From positions 1-49,713 of the forward strand of contig CACXBB010000031.1 in assembly GCA_902765735.1 (NCBI GenBank): a stretch of 49,713 nt of DNA, in the 5' to 3' direction. Numbering within the stretch: the stretch's first letter is position 1; each line of letters begins with the position of its first letter. Below are positions 2,108 to 39,267 of this stretch, piece by piece. The translations under genes and the position numbers were made by a program. The stretch comes from an uncultured Eubacteriales bacterium (lineage in GTDB: Bacteria; Bacillota; Clostridia; Christensenellales; Aristaeellaceae). The notes below the pieces were generated by a model. That model saw nothing but the letters and a program-made list of their open reading frames with translations, searched no databases and had not been told where the DNA came from.

Positions 2108-3067
2108 ATGGCGGAGAACAGGGACGCCTTTGAGGCCAGGATCCAGGCGCTGGCGGACTACATTCTGGAGGATTACGGCAACGACCGGGTGATCGACCGG
2201 CTGGAGATGTTCACCCAGCCGGACCGGCGCATCATCGAGGAGTTGATCGGCAAGCTGCTGCGGCTGGTGTTTCCGGGCTATTACCGGGACTACACCTATC
2301 GCATCTACAATCCGAAGAACAACCTGTCCGCGCTCATAGAGGACGTGGCCTTCCACCTGAACCGGCAGATCGGCATCGCCCTGCGGGGCAGCGAGCCGGT
2401 GTCCCCGCAGGAGGCGGAGCGCCGCGCCGAGGACATCACCGCCGCCTTCCTCGAGAAGCTGCCGGGCATCCGCACCTACACGGAGACCGACCTGCAGGCC
2501 GCCTACGACGGCGACCCCGCCGCCAAGAACAAGGCGGAGGTCATCATCGCCTATCCCGGCCTGTACGCCATCACGGTCAACCGGCTGGCCCACGCGCTCT
2601 ACGAGCTGAACGTGCCGCTGATCCCCCGCATCATGACCGAGTTCGCCCACAGCCGCACCGGCATCGACATCCACCCCGGCGCGCAGATCGGGCGGTACTT
2701 CTTCATCGACCACGGCACCGGCATCGTGGTGGGCGAGACCACGGTCATCGGCGACTACGTCAAGATCTACCAGGGCGTCACGCTGGGCGCGCTGTCCACC
2801 CGCGGCGGGCAGAAGCTGCGGGGCAGGCGCCGCCACCCCACCATCGAGGACAACGTGACCATCTACGCCGGCGCGTCCATACTGGGCGGCGAGACGGTGA
2901 TCGGCCACGATTCCGTCATCGGTTCCAACGTGTTCATCACCCATCCCATCGCCCCCGGCACGCGCGTCAGCATTCGCAACCAGGAGCTCCTGTACAAGAA
3001 CGGGCAGGGCTATGTGCTCCAGCCCGAGGTGCCCGGGGATGATCCGGAGTGGTTCTACATTATTTAG
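2108..3067 (+). CDS. cysE: Serine O-acetyltransferase
   Basis: A 319-residue serine acetyltransferase, which makes O-acetylserine from serine and acetyl-CoA, the first step of cysteine synthesis. It has an N-terminal helical domain (about 1-165) and a left-handed beta-helix of hexapeptide repeats (about 190-300). Family residues are visible: the Asp-His pair D201/H202 in DHGTG, H243 in RHPTIEDNV, and DIHPGAQIG before them. It resembles the EpsC-type enzymes of Clostridia. The ATG at 2108 was chosen because gggagga stands 7 bases before it; the frame stays open upstream without a good site. The stop TAG is the first part of a heptamer repeat. Only 25 bases separate it from the export gene at 3093, so read-through transcription is likely. 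Confidence 0.93.
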   Translation: MAENRDAFEARIQALADYILEDYGNDRVIDRLEMFTQPDRRIIEELIGKLLRLVFPGYYRDYTYRIYNPKNNLSALIEDVAFHLNRQIGIALRGSEPVSPQEAERRAEDITAAFLEKLPGIRTYTETDLQAAYDGDPAAKNKAEVIIAYPGLYAITVNRLAHALYELNVPLIPRIMTEFAHSRTGIDIHPGAQIGRYFFIDHGTGIVVGETTVIGDYVKIYQGVTLGALSTRGGQKLRGRRRHPTIEDNVTIYAGASILGGETVIGHDSVIGSNVFITHPIAPGTRVSIRNQELLYKNGQGYVLQPEVPGDDPEWFYII

Positions 3068-3085
3068 GGAGTAGGGAGTAGGAGT
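3065..3085 (+). repeat. Heptamer run (TAGGGAG) overlapping the cysE stop and supplying the next ribosome binding site
   Basis: Units tagggag, tagggag, taggagt start with the cysE stop codon itself. The GGAG of the last unit (3081-3084) stands 8 bases before the ATG at 3093 and is the only Shine-Dalgarno candidate for that gene. Confidence 0.75.
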
Positions 3086-3522: not shown

Positions 3523-5709
3523 TTGTTTGAGAAGAGAAGGCAGGTCAGGCAGCCGGTCAAAAACGGCGTGGCGAAGGTGCCGGTCATCATGCAGATGGAG
3601 GCGCTGGAGTGCGGCGCGGCATGCCTGGCGATGGCGATGGCCTACTATCAGAAGTGGGTGCCGCTGGAGCAGGTGCGGCTGGACTGCGGCATCTCCCGGG
3701 ACGGCTCCAACGCCAAAAACGTGATGCTGGCCGGGCGGCACTACGGCTTCGAGATGAAGGGCTACCGCGTGGAACTGGAGAGCCTTAAGCAGGTGGCGAC
3801 CTATCCCTGCATCATCCACTGGGATTTCGACCACTTCGTGGTGCTGGACGGCTTCCGCGGCAACAAGGCCGTGCTCAACGACCCCGCCCGGGGCGTGGTG
3901 CAGGTGGACATGGAGGCGTTCGACGCGGCCTTCACAGGCATCGTCATCACGATCAGGCCCGGGGAGGGCTTCGAGCCCTCCGGCAGGCGCAAGAGCACGC
4001 TGGCATTCGCCCGCAGGCGGCTGCGCGGCGCGGGGGTGGCGGTGGTGTTCGTGGCGCTGACCACGGTGATCTCCTACCTGTTCGGCATCATCAACCCCGT
4101 GATGTCCCGCATATTCTACGATCGGCTGCTGACCGGCAGAAACCCGGAGTGGCTCCACCCGTTCATCGCGCTGATGACGCTTCTGTGCGTCGTTCAGCTG
4201 GTGGTGGAGTGGGCCCGGGCGGTGTATTCGCTCAGGATCAACGGCAAGCTGACGGTCATCGGCAGCACCGCCTTCATGTGGAAGGTGCTGCTATTGCCCA
4301 TGGAGTTCTTCTCCCAGCGCATGGTGGGCGACATCCTCCAGCGCCAGTCCACCAACGCCACCATCGCGGGCACCCTGGTGGAGACCGTCGCGCCGCTTCT
4401 GCTGAACACCTTCATGACCGTGTTCTACCTGGTGCTGATGCTGCGCTACAGCCCGCTTCTGACGCTGATCGGCCTGGCCTCGGTGCTGATCAACCTGGTG
4501 GTCGCCCGGATCATGTCCGAGAAGCGGGTCAACGTGATGCGCGTGCAGATGCGCGACGAGGGCAAGCTGGCCTCCGCCACGCTGGCCGGCATCAGCATGA
4601 CCGAGACCATCAAGGCCTCCGGCGCGGAGAACGGCTTCTTCCGGAAGTGGGCGGGCTACCAGGCGTCCGTCAACACCCAGAACGTGAAGTACGCCCGCAT
4701 GGACGCGGGGCTGGGCATCATCCCCGCCTTCGTCAGCGCCGTGGCCAACTACATGGTGCTGTTCATCGGCGTGTACCTGGCGATGCACGATCAGTTCACC
4801 CTCGGCTCGATCACCATCTTCCAGGGCTTCCTGACCGCGTTCATGAACCCCGCCGAGACGCTCATCGAGGCGGGCCAGACCATCCAGGAGATGCGCACCC
4901 AGATGGAGCGCGTGGAGGACGTGATGCAGTACCCCTCCGACCCCATGGTGCGCTACGAATCCATCCGCGAGGACGTGGACTACGCCAAGCTGCGCGGCGG
5001 CGTGGAGCTCAGGGACGTGTGCTTCGGCTACGCCCCGCTGGGAAAGCCCGTCATCCAGGACTTCTCCATGAACATCAAACCCGGCAGCCGGGTGGCCATC
5101 GTGGGCGCCAGCGGCTGCGGCAAATCGACGCTGTCCAAGCTGATCTCCGGGCTGTACCTGCCCTGGTCCGGCGAGATACTGTTCGACGGAAAGCCCATCG
5201 CGGACATCCCCCGGGCGGTGTTCACCGGCTCGCTGGCCGTGGTGGATCAGGATATCATACTCTTTGAGGACACCATCGCCAACAACATCCGCATGTGGGA
5301 CGACACCATCCAGGACTTCGAGATCATACTCGCCGCCCGGGATGCCCAGCTCCACGACGATATACTCAGCCGCCCCGGCGGCTATCAGGGCCGCCTGACC
5401 GAGAACGGCAAGGACCTCTCCGGCGGCCAGCGCCAGCGGCTGGAGATCGCCCGCGTGCTGGCGCAGGACCCATCCATCATCATACTGGACGAGGCCACCT
5501 CCGCCCTCGACGCCAAGACCGAGTACGACGTGGTCAAGGCCATCAAGGACCGCGGCATCACCTGCATCGTGATCGCCCACCGGCTGTCCACCATAAGGGA
5601 CTGCGACGAGATCGTCGTGCTGGACAAGGGCGTCGTGGTGGAGCGCGGCACCCACGAGCAGCTCTACGCCAAAGGCGGCAAATACGCGGAATTGGTCACG
5701 AGCGAATGA
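3523..5709 (+). CDS. NHLP-type peptidase/permease/ATPase ABC transporter (C39 peptidase)
   Basis: A 728-residue half-transporter that cleaves a leader peptide after a double-glycine type site and exports the core. The C39 peptidase domain (about 18-145) has Q24, catalytic C30 in LECGAAC, H104 in DHFVVL and D120 in NDP. A transmembrane domain follows (about 165-470). The ATPase has Walker A GASGCGKST near 528, signature LSGGQ at 632, Walker B Asp 656 with Glu 657, and H686. The start is TTG at 3523, 8 bases after gaggaggg. It matches the first ABC protein of NHLM bacteriocin systems, and with the second at 6172 should form a heterodimer. The two are now separated by the repeat-bounded unit 5714-6148. 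No leader-bearing substrate gene was found in the window. Confidence 0.92.
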   Translation: MFEKRRQVRQPVKNGVAKVPVIMQMEALECGAACLAMAMAYYQKWVPLEQVRLDCGISRDGSNAKNVMLAGRHYGFEMKGYRVELESLKQVATYPCIIHWDFDHFVVLDGFRGNKAVLNDPARGVVQVDMEAFDAAFTGIVITIRPGEGFEPSGRRKSTLAFARRRLRGAGVAVVFVALTTVISYLFGIINPVMSRIFYDRLLTGRNPEWLHPFIALMTLLCVVQLVVEWARAVYSLRINGKLTVIGSTAFMWKVLLLPMEFFSQRMVGDILQRQSTNATIAGTLVETVAPLLLNTFMTVFYLVLMLRYSPLLTLIGLASVLINLVVARIMSEKRVNVMRVQMRDEGKLASATLAGISMTETIKASGAENGFFRKWAGYQASVNTQNVKYARMDAGLGIIPAFVSAVANYMVLFIGVYLAMHDQFTLGSITIFQGFLTAFMNPAETLIEAGQTIQEMRTQMERVEDVMQYPSDPMVRYESIREDVDYAKLRGGVELRDVCFGYAPLGKPVIQDFSMNIKPGSRVAIVGASGCGKSTLSKLISGLYLPWSGEILFDGKPIADIPRAVFTGSLAVVDQDIILFEDTIANNIRMWDDTIQDFEIILAARDAQLHDDILSRPGGYQGRLTENGKDLSGGQRQRLEIARVLAQDPSIIILDEATSALDAKTEYDVVKAIKDRGITCIVIAHRLSTIRDCDEIVVLDKGVVVERGTHEQLYAKGGKYAELVTSE

Positions 5710-5713
5710 ACAA

Positions 5714-6148
5714 CAGAGTGCAGAGTACAGAGTGCAGAGTACAGATTTGGTTTGCGGGGGTACGGAATGAGTATCACGAGGAACAAGAGCAAGCGGTTTG
5801 CGATTCGGATTGTCAATACATATCGGTATCTGTGTGAAGAGCAAAGGGAGTTTGTGCTGTCCAGACAGCTGCTTCGGTCGGGCACTTCCATAGGCGCCAA
5901 TCTTGCGGAAGCAGAGTTCGCGTTCAGCCGGAAGGAATTCCTGGCAAAGGTGTATATCGCCTTAAAGGAGACCTCAGAGACAAAATACTGGCTTGAGCTG
6001 CTGGTCGAGACGGATTATCTGACCCGGCATCAATTTGAAAGCCTTTATGCGGACGCGGAAGAGCTGAGCAAAATGCTGACAGCCACAACCAAAACCATCC
6101 GTGAAAACTGACTGCCTCTGCACTCTGTACTCTGCACTCTGCACTCTG
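5714..6148 (+). mobile_element. Heptamer-bounded unit carrying a four-helix-bundle (IVS-type) gene
   Basis: The left end has five heptamers cagagtg, cagagta, cagagtg, cagagta, cagattt (5714-5748). The right end, read inward on the minus strand, has cagagtg, cagagtg, cagagta, cagagtg, cagaggc (6148-6114). The two ends are therefore inverted repeats of about 35 bases made of the same seven-base word. The gene at 5767-6111 fills nearly all the space between. The unit begins 5 bases after the stop of one ABC gene and ends 23 bases before the start of its partner, in the same orientation. Calling it mobile is inference: no flanking target duplication was recognised. Confidence 0.6.
5767..6111 (+). 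CDS. Four-helix bundle protein, S23 / 23S rRNA intervening-sequence family
   Basis: A 114-residue all-helical protein with the family hallmarks RSGTSIGANLAEA (about 37-49), SRKEFLAKVYIALKE and an ETKYWLELL helix. Family members are encoded inside 23S rRNA intervening sequences and as free-standing genes; the related Avd protein serves diversity-generating retroelements, where it binds nucleic acid. The job of the free-standing members is not known. Start ATG at 5767, about 6 bases after gcgggg. It has no relation to export, and sits between inverted heptamer repeats, so it is better read as cargo or agent of that unit than as part of the NHLP operon. No reverse transcriptase or variable repeat was seen nearby. 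Confidence 0.85.
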   Translation: MSITRNKSKRFAIRIVNTYRYLCEEQREFVLSRQLLRSGTSIGANLAEAEFAFSRKEFLAKVYIALKETSETKYWLELLVETDYLTRHQFESLYADAEELSKMLTATTKTIREN

Positions 6149-6171: not shown

Positions 6172-8382
6172 ATGGGTTGGTTTGACGAACAGATCCGGCA
6201 GCGCATGAAGCACGACGAGGAGGTCTTTGAGGACTCCTTTGCGCGCGTGGCCAGCTCGGTGCTGGGGGGCAGGGAGGCGTCCTGGCTGCACGACAGGCGG
6301 CTGGAGGCCAGGCAGGCGCTGGACGAGATACTGAAATACTACCGCTACAAGCCCGCCGAGATTCCGGAGGAGATCACGGACCCGGAGGCGCAGTTTGAGT
6401 ACGCCCTTCGGCCGGTGGGGCTGATGACCCGCGACGTGGCGCTCACGGAGGGCTGGTACAAGGACGCCTACGGGCCCATGCTGGGGTTTTTGAGGGATTC
6501 CGGCGCGGCGGTGGCGCTGCTGCCGGGCCGACTGCACGGCTACCGCTTCACCGACCCGGACACCGGCAGGCAGGTGCGGGTCACGAGGCAGAACGCCGGG
6601 CGGCTGGACCGTGCGGCGCTGTGCTTCTACCGGCCCCTGCCCATGAAGAAGCTGGGCATCCCCGACCTGCTCGCGTACCTGAGAAGCTGCATCACCAACG
6701 GCGACATCGCGGTGATCATGCTGGCCACCCTGGCGGTGGTGCTGGTGGGCATGATCGAGCCGAAGGTGGCCGAGGTGCTCACCGGGCCCGTGCTCAAGAG
6801 CAAAAACCTGTCGCTTCTGGTGGGCATGGCGGTGTTCCTGATCGCCTCTGCGTTCGCGTCGCAGCTTTTGCAGGTCACCAAGGACCTGCTGACCCAGCGC
6901 ATCTCCCAGAAGACTTCGATGGCCGTGGAGGCCTCGGTGATGATGCGCATACTCTCGCTGCCGGTCAGCTTCTTCCGGCGGTTTTCCTCCGGCGAGCTCT
7001 CGAGCCGCGCGGACTCCGTGGGCTCCCTGTGCGAGATGCTGCTGGACAACACCATGTTCACCGGGCTGACCTCGCTGATGTCGCTGATGTACATCAGCCA
7101 GATCTTCGGCTTTGCGCCGGCGCTGGTGTGGCCCTCCATCATCATCATCGTGGTCACGGTGCTCTTGAGCCTGGTCACCTCGCTTGCGCAGATCCGCATC
7201 TCCCGGCGGAAGATGAAGCTCAGCGCCGCCGAGTCCGGCATGAGCTACGCAATGGTCAGCGGCATCCAGAAGATCCGCCTCTCCGGGGCGGAGAAGCGCG
7301 CCTTTGCCCGCTGGGCCGGACTGTACGCGCAGAACACCGAGCTGGAGTACAACCCGCCGCCGTTTTTAAAGCTCAACAGCGTGTTGAACACCGGCATCAT
7401 GCTGGCGGGCAACATCGTATTGTACTACATCGCCGCCCGCACCGGCGTTGCCCCCAACGAATACTTCGCCTTCAGCGCCGCCTACGGGCGGGTGATGGGC
7501 GCCTTCTCCGCGATGGCCGGCATCGCCATCGCGGTGGCCTCGATACCGCCGGTGCTGGAGATGGCGGAGCCCATCCTCAAGGCCGAGCCGGAGGTCACCG
7601 CCGACAAGGAGGTCATCACAAAGGTCAGCGGCGGTATCGAGCTGAGCCATGTCTCCTTCCGCTACGAGCCGGACGCGCCCTGCGTATTGAACGACCTGTC
7701 GCTCAGGATCAGGTCGGGGGAGTACGTCGCCATCGTGGGCCGCACGGGCTGCGGCAAGTCCACGCTGGTCAAGCTGCTGCTGGGCTTTGAGACGCCGGAG
7801 AAGGGCGCGATCTACTACGACGGCAAGAACCTCAAGCGCATTGACCCCAAGTCCCTGCGCAAGCAGATGGGTGTGGTGATCCAGAACGGGCAGCTCATCC
7901 AGGGGGACATCTACTCCAATATCGTCATCTCCGCGCCCCAGCTCACCCTCGACGACGCCTGGGCCGCGGCGGAGATCGCCGGCATCGCCGACGACATCCG
8001 GGAAATGCCCATGGGCATGCAGACCATCATCTCCGAGGGGCAGGGCGGCATCTCCGGCGGCCAGAAGCAGCGGCTGATGATTGCCCGGGCCATCGCCCCC
8101 AAGCCGAGGATACTGATCTTCGACGAGGCCACCAGCGCCCTGGACAACAAGACCCAGAAGCAGGTGTCCGAGGCGCTGGACGCGCTCAAGTGCACGCGCA
8201 TCGTGATCGCCCACCGGCTGTCCACCATCCGCCACTGCGACCGCATACTGGTGATGGACGGCGGCGCGATCGTCGAGCAGGGCACCTACGACCAGCTCAT
8301 CGCCCAGAACGGCCGCTTCGCCGAGCTCGTCGCAAGGCAGAGGCTGGATGATACGAAGGAACCTGAGGCGGAGAATGTATAA
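6172..8382 (+). CDS. NHLP-type ABC transporter, second subunit without peptidase
   Basis: A 736-residue half-transporter of the NHLM ABC2 type. The first 160 or so residues are a soluble region in place of the C39 peptidase. Then come about six membrane segments (from about 175 to 470) and an ATPase with Walker A GRTGCGKST near 523, signature ISGGQ at 627, Walker B Asp 651 and Glu 652, and an H-loop in AHRLSTIR. ATG at 6172 is preceded by agggag at good spacing. It should pair with the peptidase subunit at 3523 to export a processed peptide. The stop TAA is followed within a few bases by another repeat-rich stretch. Confidence 0.92.
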   Translation: MGWFDEQIRQRMKHDEEVFEDSFARVASSVLGGREASWLHDRRLEARQALDEILKYYRYKPAEIPEEITDPEAQFEYALRPVGLMTRDVALTEGWYKDAYGPMLGFLRDSGAAVALLPGRLHGYRFTDPDTGRQVRVTRQNAGRLDRAALCFYRPLPMKKLGIPDLLAYLRSCITNGDIAVIMLATLAVVLVGMIEPKVAEVLTGPVLKSKNLSLLVGMAVFLIASAFASQLLQVTKDLLTQRISQKTSMAVEASVMMRILSLPVSFFRRFSSGELSSRADSVGSLCEMLLDNTMFTGLTSLMSLMYISQIFGFAPALVWPSIIIIVVTVLLSLVTSLAQIRISRRKMKLSAAESGMSYAMVSGIQKIRLSGAEKRAFARWAGLYAQNTELEYNPPPFLKLNSVLNTGIMLAGNIVLYYIAARTGVAPNEYFAFSAAYGRVMGAFSAMAGIAIAVASIPPVLEMAEPILKAEPEVTADKEVITKVSGGIELSHVSFRYEPDAPCVLNDLSLRIRSGEYVAIVGRTGCGKSTLVKLLLGFETPEKGAIYYDGKNLKRIDPKSLRKQMGVVIQNGQLIQGDIYSNIVISAPQLTLDDAWAAAEIAGIADDIREMPMGMQTIISEGQGGISGGQKQRLMIARAIAPKPRILIFDEATSALDNKTQKQVSEALDALKCTRIVIAHRLSTIRHCDRILVMDGGAIVEQGTYDQLIAQNGRFAELVARQRLDDTKEPEAENV

Positions 8383-8383
8383 G

Positions 8384-8616
8384 GTATTAGAGTGTGTTTC
8401 TAAATGCCGGGAGATGCAGTTTCGAGCGGATTTGGCTGCATTTCAAGGCGATTTTCCGCAGGCTTAGTGGGGCTAAGTCAAGGGAAATTGGGAATTGGGA
8501 ATGGAGAATTCCGGTGGAAATCCCTCGGATTTCTTTTGATAAAAGGGTTACGATGAAATGTATGTTCATTGGCTATTCAGGCATTCTGTAATTCCCCATT
8601 CCCCATTCCCAATTTA
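8384..8616. repeat. Non-coding repeat unit with inverted heptamer ends
   Basis: Just after the ABC stop comes tattagagtgtgtttct, similar to the sequence at 98-112 (inverted). At 8482-8510 lie ggga-type heptamers gggaatt, gggaatg, gagaatt. At 8590-8610 the same words occur inverted, reading inward from the right gggaatg, gggaatg, gggaatt. The 79 bases between hold no gene. A 50-codon frame from 8404 has no ribosome binding site and is not credited. The layout matches the unit at 5714 but without cargo. Confidence 0.65.
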
Positions 8617-27839: not shown

Positions 27840-28161
27840 GAGAGTGGAGAGTGAAGAGTGGAGTGTGGAGTTATAGTTAGCCGCGCACAACACATGTGAC
27901 GGCAGAAAACGAGGGGACGACCTCTTTCGTCACGCTTCGCGTGCCACCTTCCCCTGAAGGGGAAGGCTTAGGGAAACGCTGCCAAAAGCCTTCCCCTTCA
28001 GGGGAAGGTGGATTAATGCCGCCAGGCATTAAGACGGAAGAGGTCGTCCTCCACGCTCTCCCCATGACAGTTGAAAACTAAACGTTTTGTGGCAGAAGAT
28101 CGCATTGCATCGTTCCCAGGCACTCTTTATCTCCGCTCTCCACTCCTCACTCTCCACTCTC
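27840..28161. mobile_element. Non-coding unit with inverted heptamer ends and an inner REP block
   Basis: Left end, going inward: gagagtg, gagagtg, aagagtg, gagtgtg, gagttat (27840-27874). Right end, going inward on the minus strand: gagagtg, gagagtg, aggagtg, gagagcg, gagataa (28161-28127). Five heptamers at each end is the same architecture as the gene-bearing unit at 5714-6148, with a different word. The inside holds no gene but a large imperfect inverted repeat (about 27905-28055) of the type gacgacctctttcgtcacgc with ccttcccctgaaggggaagg. The unit starts 17 bases after the trmL stop. Mobility is inferred. Confidence 0.6.
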
Positions 28162-34793: not shown

Positions 34794-35037
34794 GGGGATG
34801 GAGGAATAGGCAATAGGGAATAGGGAATAGGGAATAGGAATAGACAGGCCGTCGTAGGGACGCCATTCATGGCGTCCGGGGACGGCAAGGGGTTACGACC
34901 TCTTCCGGCGCTACGCGCCACCTTCCCATCAAGGGGAAGGCTTTTGGAGGCGCTGTCTTATGCCTTCCCCTTCAGGGGAAGGTGGCAGCCCGAAGGGCTG
35001 ACGGAAGAGGTCGGCACCCCTACGATAAATCTGCTGC
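34794..35037. repeat. Intergenic repeat cluster: heptamers and REP-like palindromes
   Basis: Heptamers aggcaat, agggaat, agggaat, agggaat, aggaata run from 34808 to 34842. Then come gtagggacgccattcatggc with gtcc (34854-34877) and a block with acgacctcttccg, ccttccc-aaggggaaggc and its inverse, ending ggaagaggtc (34886-35012). No gene is seen. The cluster separates convergent genes. Confidence 0.85.
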
Positions 35038-38848: not shown

Positions 38849-39267
38849 TGAATGGGGAATTGGGAATTATAGAATGCCGGAGAACATGCGTAGGGGCGCC
38901 GATGCGGCACCCGCCCAGAGTGATGTCAGCATAACTGTCAATCAATTCCACCGCATCCGTCTTTCGGCAAAATTGCAGGCAATTTTGCCGAAATCCACCT
39001 TCCCCTGATAGTAGGCGCGACCAGCCCGCGCGCATCCTACGGATGCCAGCGCGGCGCTGCCGGCGCTTCCGCAAAGCGGAGTAGCGCCGGTGCGTAAAGG
39101 GGAAGGCTTGGGCGGGCGGCGCATCGCCGCCCCTACGCGACATCGAGGTTTATCCATCCGTAGGGACGCCATTCATGGCGTCCGCGGGCGGCATGAATGC
39201 CGCCCCTACAATACGCATTATCCGTAGAGGCGATCCCCTGATCGCCCGTCGGACTGAATGGTGACGT
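38849..39267. repeat. Nested intergenic repeats between convergent genes
   Basis: Five bases after the desulfurase stop, two heptamers ggggaat, tgggaat are followed by tatagaatgccgg, which resembles the inverted sequence near 8575. A REP pair aacatgcgtaggggcgcc (38883) and cggcgcatcgccgcccctac (about 39117-39136) encloses another repeat block (about 38995-39110) with ccttcccctgatag and ggggaaggc. Then follow gacgccattcatggcgtc (39165-39182), ggcggcatgaatgccgcc (39187-39204) and gcgatcccctgatcgc (39230-39245). No gene is seen. Confidence 0.85.

Follow-up and report, generated by a model that had tools for sequence, protein, structure and literature searches.

The window analyzed here, a stretch of 49,713 nucleotides from a contig of an uncultured Eubacteriales bacterium, carries between two ABC exporter genes a small gene for a four-helix-bundle (4HB) protein that is enclosed by inverted arrays of a heptamer, and this arrangement raises the question of whether gene and arrays form one element and, if so, of which kind. 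A sequence-only reading had proposed that they are a single mobile or RNA-based unit. Intervening sequences (IVS) with an ORF of the S23/IVP type are known in 23S rRNA, and PF05635/TIGR02436, to which the 4HB protein belongs, is to our knowledge a large family without a known function.

The 4HB gene of the window lies between complementary heptamer arms

The unit and its two neighbors comprise the following features.

3523-5709, + strand: ABC exporter gene 1, with an N-terminal peptidase C39 domain (Pfam PF03412, PF00664, PF00005); upstream neighbor
5714-5745, + strand: 5' arm, made up of about 4.6 tandem copies of CAGAGTR, 4 nt past the upstream stop codon
5767-6111, + strand: 4HB gene (23S_rRNA_IVP/TIGR02436; PF05635, TIGR02436, PDB 2rld), ATG start, alternative TTG start at 5752
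6117-6148, - strand: 3' arm, CAGAGTR array inverted, forming the closing stem with the 5' arm in the RNA fold
6172-8382, + strand: ABC exporter gene 2 (Pfam PF00005, PF00664); downstream neighbor

The unit measures 435 bases, and the 4HB gene and both ABC genes are all on the plus strand. The arrays, the Pfam matches and the strands confirmed the earlier description of a 4HB gene set in the operon direction between inverted CAGAGT(G/A) arrays at an ABC-ABC junction; the array ends were also as described, but the five heptamer copies claimed for each end proved to be four whole CAGAGTR words plus a part (about 4.6). The protein matched PF05635 with 101.5 bits in a Pfam profile search (cut-off 33.8) and TIGR02436 (four helix bundle protein) with 105.9 bits (cut-off 24), as well as the solved structure PDB 2rld (E 5e-38) and, weakly, 2gsc (XCC0516; E 0.34).

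The two arms, of 32 nt each, are 91% complementary, and a shift by one word gives 26 nt of perfect pairing (5714-5739 with 6116-6141). In the RNA fold of the unit they make up the closing stem (z -3.40), and z-scores of -3.07 and -7.92, the latter from a case in RNase P RNA, were obtained for further units, which are accordingly predicted to fold as hairpins closed by their arms. As in an IVS, the S23/IVP ORF lies within complementary termini that form a stem; the window unit sits between two ABC genes and not inside a 23S rRNA gene.

Matched arms around genes of the 4HB family

Each 4HB locus, fetched among the best matches of each search, was tested for an inverted match of its upstream against its downstream flank and for a tandem period. 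The pooled set held 238 loci, 207 after removal of near copies (same-site orthologues were kept) and 197 with flanks. An arm alignment score of at least 14 was found in 141 of these 197 loci, and 154 had either such a score or a shared period; the 43 with neither include the SIGANIAEGN-type genes L042, L043 and L058. In the sample from the genus and the phylum, where flanks were available for 58 of 60 loci, 47 reached the arm score compared with 2 of 203 control intervals from the same loci, and lag 7 was seen on both sides in 42 compared with 3 of the 203 controls. Among named genomes (best 80 of 582 matches) the arms were present in 41 of 75 loci and in none of 467 controls. Nineteen phylum labels occur among these 75 loci; 10 have at least one passing locus, by arm score or by shared period, and 9, represented by one locus each, have none. 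Matched arms were likewise frequent in viral contigs, which include some near copies (25/32, controls 0/148), in the phylum of a Gastranaerophilales genome, which we take to be cyanobacterial (24/29, controls 0/28), in further units (17/24, controls 0/24) and in the 4HB copies of genome G454 (9/13, controls 0/13). ParE genes of the same genus had matched arms in 0 of 29 cases (30 loci, one of them without a flank). The sequence-only reading had suggested asking whether arrays flank 4HB genes more often than other genes, and the answer is affirmative (141/197 versus 2/203, 0/467, 0/148 and, for ParE, 0/29).

The pairing was specific to the unit, with a mean score of 20.2 for an arm and its own partner and of 8.7 for swapped partners. 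The shared period was 7 in 104 of 120 loci, 8 in ten, 9 in three, 11 in two and 6 in one. A period of 8 (e.g. AGTGAATA) was the best lag in both arms of L229, L230, L232, L234, L236, L240, L242 and L253, and L245 showed very long complementary flanks (alignment score 68) with the word CTGAGTG around its 4HB gene. That the period is set by the protein was considered and not retained: in a FastTree tree of 196 proteins the label 7/not-7 needs 11 changes with 16 non-7 rows, and no clustering is claimed.

Polarity and orientation of the units

The 5' arm, read in the sense of the gene, contains 36% G and 9% C, and G exceeded C in 135 of 141 loci and C exceeded G in five. Over all loci, both neighbors were in sense with the 4HB gene in 106 of 177 cases and both antisense in 22. 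Because spurious antisense ORFs in GC-rich DNA dilute this full set, loci with a GC content below 50% were used for orientation; with the longest ORFs taken as neighbors and 11 loci without a long ORF set aside, both neighbors ran along the 4HB gene in 79 of 99 and against it in 3. Where the upstream gene was in the same sense and the array could be seen, the array started between -30 and +33 nt from the upstream stop codon in 34 of 49 loci. Judged from the reading frames, the 4HB units thus lie mostly in sense orientation behind stop codons. In L300 and L295, both at purA-purB, the array's own TGA is, by eye, the stop codon of purA. Such array starts at stop codons suggested that the word might be copied from the target; this does not hold in general, since the same word is found in units at two different sites.

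Sites that are empty, filled or differently filled among relatives

Of 24 loci returned for the ABC junction, 18 were examined, one per genome. The two ABC genes were adjacent in 17 genomes, the own genome included, and the junction was empty in nine and filled in eight, so that the empty ABC1-ABC2 sites anticipated in related genomes do exist. The empty junctions have a gap of 14-25 nt and include those of the two genomes whose ABC2 is the most similar (90% and 88%). Five of the eight filled junctions had matched arms, in five different words: the window unit, L185 and L182 with a 4HB gene of the other subfamily, and L177 and L183, which are non-coding. The 4HB gene of L182 is split by a hairpin element that bears one heptamer array. 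A right-hand array with no matching left arm was present in L179 and L180. L186 had looked like a heptamer unit by eye, but with lag-7 scores of only 2 and 3 it fails the array test and was left out of the matched units. A 4HB gene at this junction devoid of arrays, which was to count against the proposed unit, was not seen, the arms being matched in all three cases (L173, L182, L185). Compared by eye with the empty sites L174 and L175, the ABC site showed no recognizable target-site duplication, although edges may have drifted. The inserts of L177 and L182 contain an element with inverted ends like GTAACTATTCAGTC..GACTGAACAGTTAC (by eye), which in L182 lies within the 4HB gene.

The own genome carries two PF05635 genes. 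The second (L001) is located between purA (Pfam PF00709) and a gene which, as read from its start, we take to be purB, although the first 131 residues of the latter matched no Pfam model; it is likewise enclosed by inverted heptamer arrays, with another word, AATTAGG. Inspected by eye in 28 genomes, the purA-purB site held a 4HB gene or remnant in nine, a bare array hairpin in one, other sequence in 13, and was empty in five. This site (L275-L302) is a hot spot, and several of the 13 other inserts have acetyltransferase-like ORFs (by eye). At gyrB-gyrA (Pfam PF00986, PF00521), 22 loci comprised nine 4HB units, one remnant, three empty sites, seven with other sequence and two in which the site was not visible. 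In L343 of this site the arrays are kept and the gene is deleted, and arrays also remain where the gene is lost or broken in L295 and L182. As read from these loci, relatives may lack an insert at a given site, carry a unit there or carry a different one.

Concerted change of the arms and movement between sites

In 10 of the 11 gyrB-gyrA units, L007 being cut by the contig end, the word was AGGGATT, AGGGAGT, AGGGAAC or AGGGAAA, and in each of these 10 the commonest word was equal on both sides (with a tie in L011); L009, L016 and L023 even have an AGGCAGT variant common to both arms. None of 20000 permutations of partners at gyrB-gyrA reached the observed arm fit. For eight of the nine purA-purB units 9 of 40320 did, and the own partner fitted best for five of eight upstream arms; L276 gave no arm match in the stretch used. 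Both permutation figures ignore kinship and, since units with one word are relatives, are not probabilities of independent events. Both arms of a unit evidently change word in concert, and this joint change at the fixed gyrB-gyrA site calls for arm-to-arm copying or strong selection at the RNA level.

Purifying selection acts on the 4HB gene at gyrB-gyrA (pN/pS with a median of 0.29 over 36 pairs). Its synonymous difference was 0.78 compared with 0.27 for gyrB, and was the higher of the two in 33 of 36 pairs; at purA-purB it was 0.86 compared with 0.33 for the neighbor, and higher in 28 of 28 pairs. Therefore, either units have been replaced at a given site or they change far faster than their flanks.

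One branch of the protein tree (91/95) separates the purA-purB units from all others. The units L012, L013 and L022 of another site, siteX, which have the word AGGGAGT, nest within the gyrB-gyrA units, where their neighbors L016 (95/89) and L023 (90/83) have the same word, and L005, at a third site, is sister to the gyrB-gyrA unit L014 (91/81), both with AGGGAAA. In the three between-site pairs the best flank alignments consisted of the arrays plus a few bases: L016 and L013 agreed at 31 of 31 nt (3' arm), L023 and L022 at 35 of 37 nt (5' arm), and L014 and L005 at 28 of 31 and 35 of 37 nt. Because the similarity between sites is confined to the arrays, the arms are read as the ends of the moved piece. 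By tree and alignment, arms and gene thus moved together, and the word is read as having been carried along with the moving unit rather than made from the target.

Arrays and hairpins without a 4HB gene

The window contains six lag-7 arrays scoring at least 14. Since none was found at lags 5, 6 or 8-12 and 40 first-order Markov simulations of the window produced no such lag-7 array, they are not due to chance, and in having tandem period-7 arrays beyond chance the window resembles STRR-type sequences. Apart from the unit at the ABC junction, the following arrays were found.

1714-1737, + strand: single AGGGAAC array; L010 and L024, coding gyrB-gyrA units in relatives, have this word
3065-3082, + strand: single TAGGGAG array, word as in L009, L016 and L023
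8486-8614: non-coding pair of inverted heptamer arrays with the word AATTGGG/AATGGGG, arms 8486-8509 and 8591-8614
27840-28161: non-coding inverted heptamer pair, word GAGAGTG, arms 27840-27871 and 28130-28161
34805-34838, + strand: single GGAATAG array, from the lag-7 scan of the window

The first three bases of the array at 3065 are the stop codon of the ORF that ends at 3067. The word family of the pair at 8486-8614 is that of the coding unit L281 of a relative, and words similar to that of the GAGAGTG pair, which encloses CCTTCCCC..GGGGAAGG hairpins, occur in the coding units L017-L019. The two empty pairs had been announced by the sequence-only reading at 27840-28161 and 8482-8610, and both exist. 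Their interpretation as non-autonomous forms of the coding unit holds in part: their words match coding units of genus-mates and not CAGAGTR, and the other cargo of the pair at 27840-28161 speaks against a plain non-autonomous reading, which applies better to hairpins that share both word and inner end with coding relatives.

Such a hairpin, of 95 bases, is present near purB of the own genome and aligns with the coding purA-purB unit of G001 over arm and inner end (94%, 51 nt). The own genome has 70 matches to it, and 7 of the 9 genomes with a purA-purB-type unit have 40-91; at least 40 matches were found in none of the 19 genomes that lack such a unit (largest count 25; Fisher p 3e-5, with the threshold of 40 set after the counts were seen, both strands counted, kinship ignored and up to 32 candidate stretches scored per genome). 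Some gene-less hairpins therefore share arm and inner end with coding units, which supports their reading as non-autonomous forms. The motif GGAATRG near the inner array ends (16 of 48 coding-class and 6 of 31 non-coding-class arrays, compared with 19 of 5100 background windows) is not leaned on because it resembles some of the words and because the non-coding class includes the missed coding units L015, L017, L019, L027 and L030.

Genome G454 has ten near-identical array-4HB-array copies (L227, L257-L265). In eight of them the left end of a conventional TIR MITE (ACTGACGTTACGCA..TGCGTAACATCAGT) was seen by eye, and 5-bp duplications were recognized, also by eye, in L227 (TAATA), L260 (TACTA) and L263 (AATTA); the true TIRs lie outside the heptamer arrays. 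This unit was multiplied as MITE cargo, so that hitch-hiking also occurs and not every copy moved by itself. Eight of the ten copies also have a second, nested MITE inside the 4HB gene, bearing heptamer arrays of its own.

Units in structural RNA genes

Four 4HB loci, L048, L054, L059 and L060, are situated inside 23S rRNA and have heptamer-type arms with lag-7 scores of 12/11, 6/11, 9/3 and 12/17, respectively. A further case lies within an RNase P RNA gene.

L057:1229-2003 and L385:1229-2003: heptamer-armed 4HB ORF in the class A RNase P RNA gene, in two genomes of one genus code

In L057 the class A model matched from 1 to 367 with 294 bits, and the insert, of more than 400 nt, is found at a stem tip after ACCGCC; the stem is presumably P12. 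L385, from the second genome, is likewise in class A RNase P RNA (293.7 bits). The arms prolong the host stem (z -7.92). As the gene models and folds indicate, some units thus reside in RNA stems, either of 23S rRNA or of RNase P RNA. A scan of 60 further loci found none inside an Rfam family, which rules out structural RNA hosts as a rule and makes the 23S rRNA and RNase P RNA cases a minority.

Comparison with known systems

The nearest described element is the 23S IVS of Coxiella, which is 428 nt long, has tandem GACAGAT heptamers at its 5' end, is cleaved by RNase III in its stem, and whose S23p protein was suggested not to be made in vivo (PMC4990558). The window unit has the same kind of protein and an ORF within complementary stem-forming ends, but is located between protein genes and not in rRNA. 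The available text of that paper makes no mention of a period-7 make-up of both arms, of word drift or of movement from site to site (PMC4990558).

Tandem 7-mers are also known as repeats, namely in Xanthomonas (GGGAATC, with 70 and 75 convergent pairs) and Nostoc (PMC4692102), as TAACTGA in Beggiatoaceae (PMC4679880), and as STRRs within cyanobacterial RNase P RNA genes (Vioque 1997, cited in PMC2858038). In the text available, these sequences are described as repeats, and the terms S23, four helix and xcc0516 do not occur in the main text of PMC4692102, nor S23 and four helix in PMC4679880. The P6b stem of the Nostoc trnL (UAA) intron is built of 7-nt repeats of the class TDNGATT or NNTGAGT, and the class has been replaced between Nostoc lineages, which resembles the units in both respects; unlike them, it is the stem of one group I intron, and no ORF is mentioned in the accessible part of the source (PMC4476775). 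In the literature covered, which is partial, no link between the 4HB family and heptamer arms was found beyond the remark on Coxiella, and given this limited coverage the absence of a described link is weak evidence of novelty.

The Avd proteins of diversity-generating retroelements also have a four-helix-bundle fold. Distant homology to them is apparent through L038, which matches DivGenRetAVD with 30 bits (cut-off 80) and a PHROG Avd family; the window protein, in contrast, did not match the DivGenRetAVD model at E<=0.001, and the own genome (96.7% complete) has no RVT_1 match. With MITEs and other non-autonomous transposons the units share short inverted-repeat ends and gene-less copies; unlike them, they end in tandem arrays of unit-specific words and have no fixed TIR.

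A probable mobile IVS-type element and its alternatives

Patchy sites, the association of gene and arrays and their joint movement support the proposal that the 4HB gene and its heptamer ends are one mobile or RNA-based unit. We consider it likely that the window unit belongs to a widespread kind of small mobile IVS-type element, with a 23S_rRNA_IVP 4HB gene, inverted unit-specific arrays (usually of 7 nt), arms that close a hairpin, words kept matched by slippage plus copying, and a protein that is a putative chaperone. In the transcript, the arm stem would isolate the insert and leave the host RNA usable; in 23S rRNA, RNase III would cut the arm stem, as published for Coxiella (PMC4990558). 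The G-rich, C-poor composition of the 5' arm may avoid self-folding, and tandem slippage followed by template copying from arm to arm within the hairpin could keep the arms matched. The 4HB protein would be a nucleic-acid chaperone acting in trans; bound to the arm hairpin, it would help both its own unit and gene-less ones to be copied or inserted.

That the arrays are host repeats only, i.e. period-7 arrays that expand by slippage in many intergenic regions of genomes rich in repeats and adjoin 4HB genes by chance, would fit the arrays found without a 4HB gene in the window and the genus and the heptamer repeats reported, in the text available, for Xanthomonas, Nostoc and Beggiatoaceae (PMC4692102, PMC4679880). 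This explanation is already strained, and we find it hardly credible, because the two arms share word and period, face inward and keep a G-rich polarity (135/141), swapped partners do not pair, ParE genes have no such arms (0/29), the arms moved with the gene, and, in the sample of the best 80 of 582 matches, 10 of the 19 phylum labels include passing loci. At the opposite end, the arm stem and the 4HB protein might be a domesticated module that controls in what ratio or when two co-transcribed genes are expressed and is kept for the benefit of the host, which would account for the purifying selection on the 4HB gene (median pN/pS 0.29) and for its sense position between neighboring genes such as gyrB-gyrA; occupancy is, however, patchy among relatives at all three sites examined, and the gene is lost or broken while the arrays remain in L295, L343 and L182, so that a host function of this kind seems highly doubtful.

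Two other explanations accept mobility and differ in its agent. A hairpin RNA bound by an Avd-like 4HB protein might be copied by a reverse transcriptase acting in trans; the relatedness to Avd (L038: DivGenRetAVD 30 bits, PHROG Avd), the sense orientation and the insertion in structured RNA genes would suit an RNA intermediate. Yet the own genome has no RVT_1 match despite its two 4HB genes, and within the genus a reverse transcriptase was found in 6 of 20 genomes with a 4HB gene and in 2 of 8 without one (Fisher p = 1), so that no association with 4HB presence is apparent and such a retro-mobile route is unlikely. A MITE-like DNA element, in which the arms are terminal inverted repeats for a host transposase and the 4HB gene is cargo, would agree with the numerous gene-less relatives and with the G454 units that lie in a MITE with ACTGACGTTACGCA/TGCGTAACATCAGT ends and 5-bp duplications. 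We regard it as decidedly unlikely, since arm words vary from unit to unit, as transposase sites do not, no duplication was recognized by eye at the ABC site, and the true TIRs of G454 are outside the arrays.

If most PF05635/TIGR02436 genes sit in word-matched heptamer arms, the arm hairpin would be the likely substrate of the protein and give this family a testable job. The occurrence of such armed 4HB genes in many bacterial phyla suggests a widespread small mobile element with self-rewriting ends, and the arms offer a natural experiment in concerted evolution. A broader proposal, which we put forward tentatively and do not favor over its negation, is that the S23/IVP 4HB genes represent the coding part of a general class of mobile RNA hairpins, present in at least 10 phyla, with self-rewriting tandem-word arms; the scattered heptamer repeats (STRRs, the GGGAATC of Xanthomonas, the stems of the trnL intron and RNase P RNA) would then be its gene-less forms, the IVSs of rRNA would be the insertions that were noticed because the rRNA is split, and the protein would act in trans to copy or insert arm hairpins, whatever their word, at a set period. 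Were this true, rRNA intervening sequences, heptamer simple repeats and structural-RNA hairpins would be one kind of element.

Additional repeats in the window and beside gyrB-gyrA units

Two types of repeated hairpin recur in the window. The hairpin CGTAGGGACGCCATTCATGGCGTCC is found at 1754-1778, 34853-34877 and 39159-39183, two of the three copies lying just inside single heptamer arrays, and the CCTTCCCC..GGGGAAGG hairpin, a second type of repeated cargo, is found at 27947, 27989 and 34963. Among the gyrB-gyrA loci, L007 and L023, both from the G015 assembly, are two distinct 4HB units that adjoin gyrB and gyrA at the ends of contigs, for which a bin of mixed strains is possible, and L006 has, upstream of its unit, longer tandem copies that each contain a short TAGGGAGTAGGGAG array.
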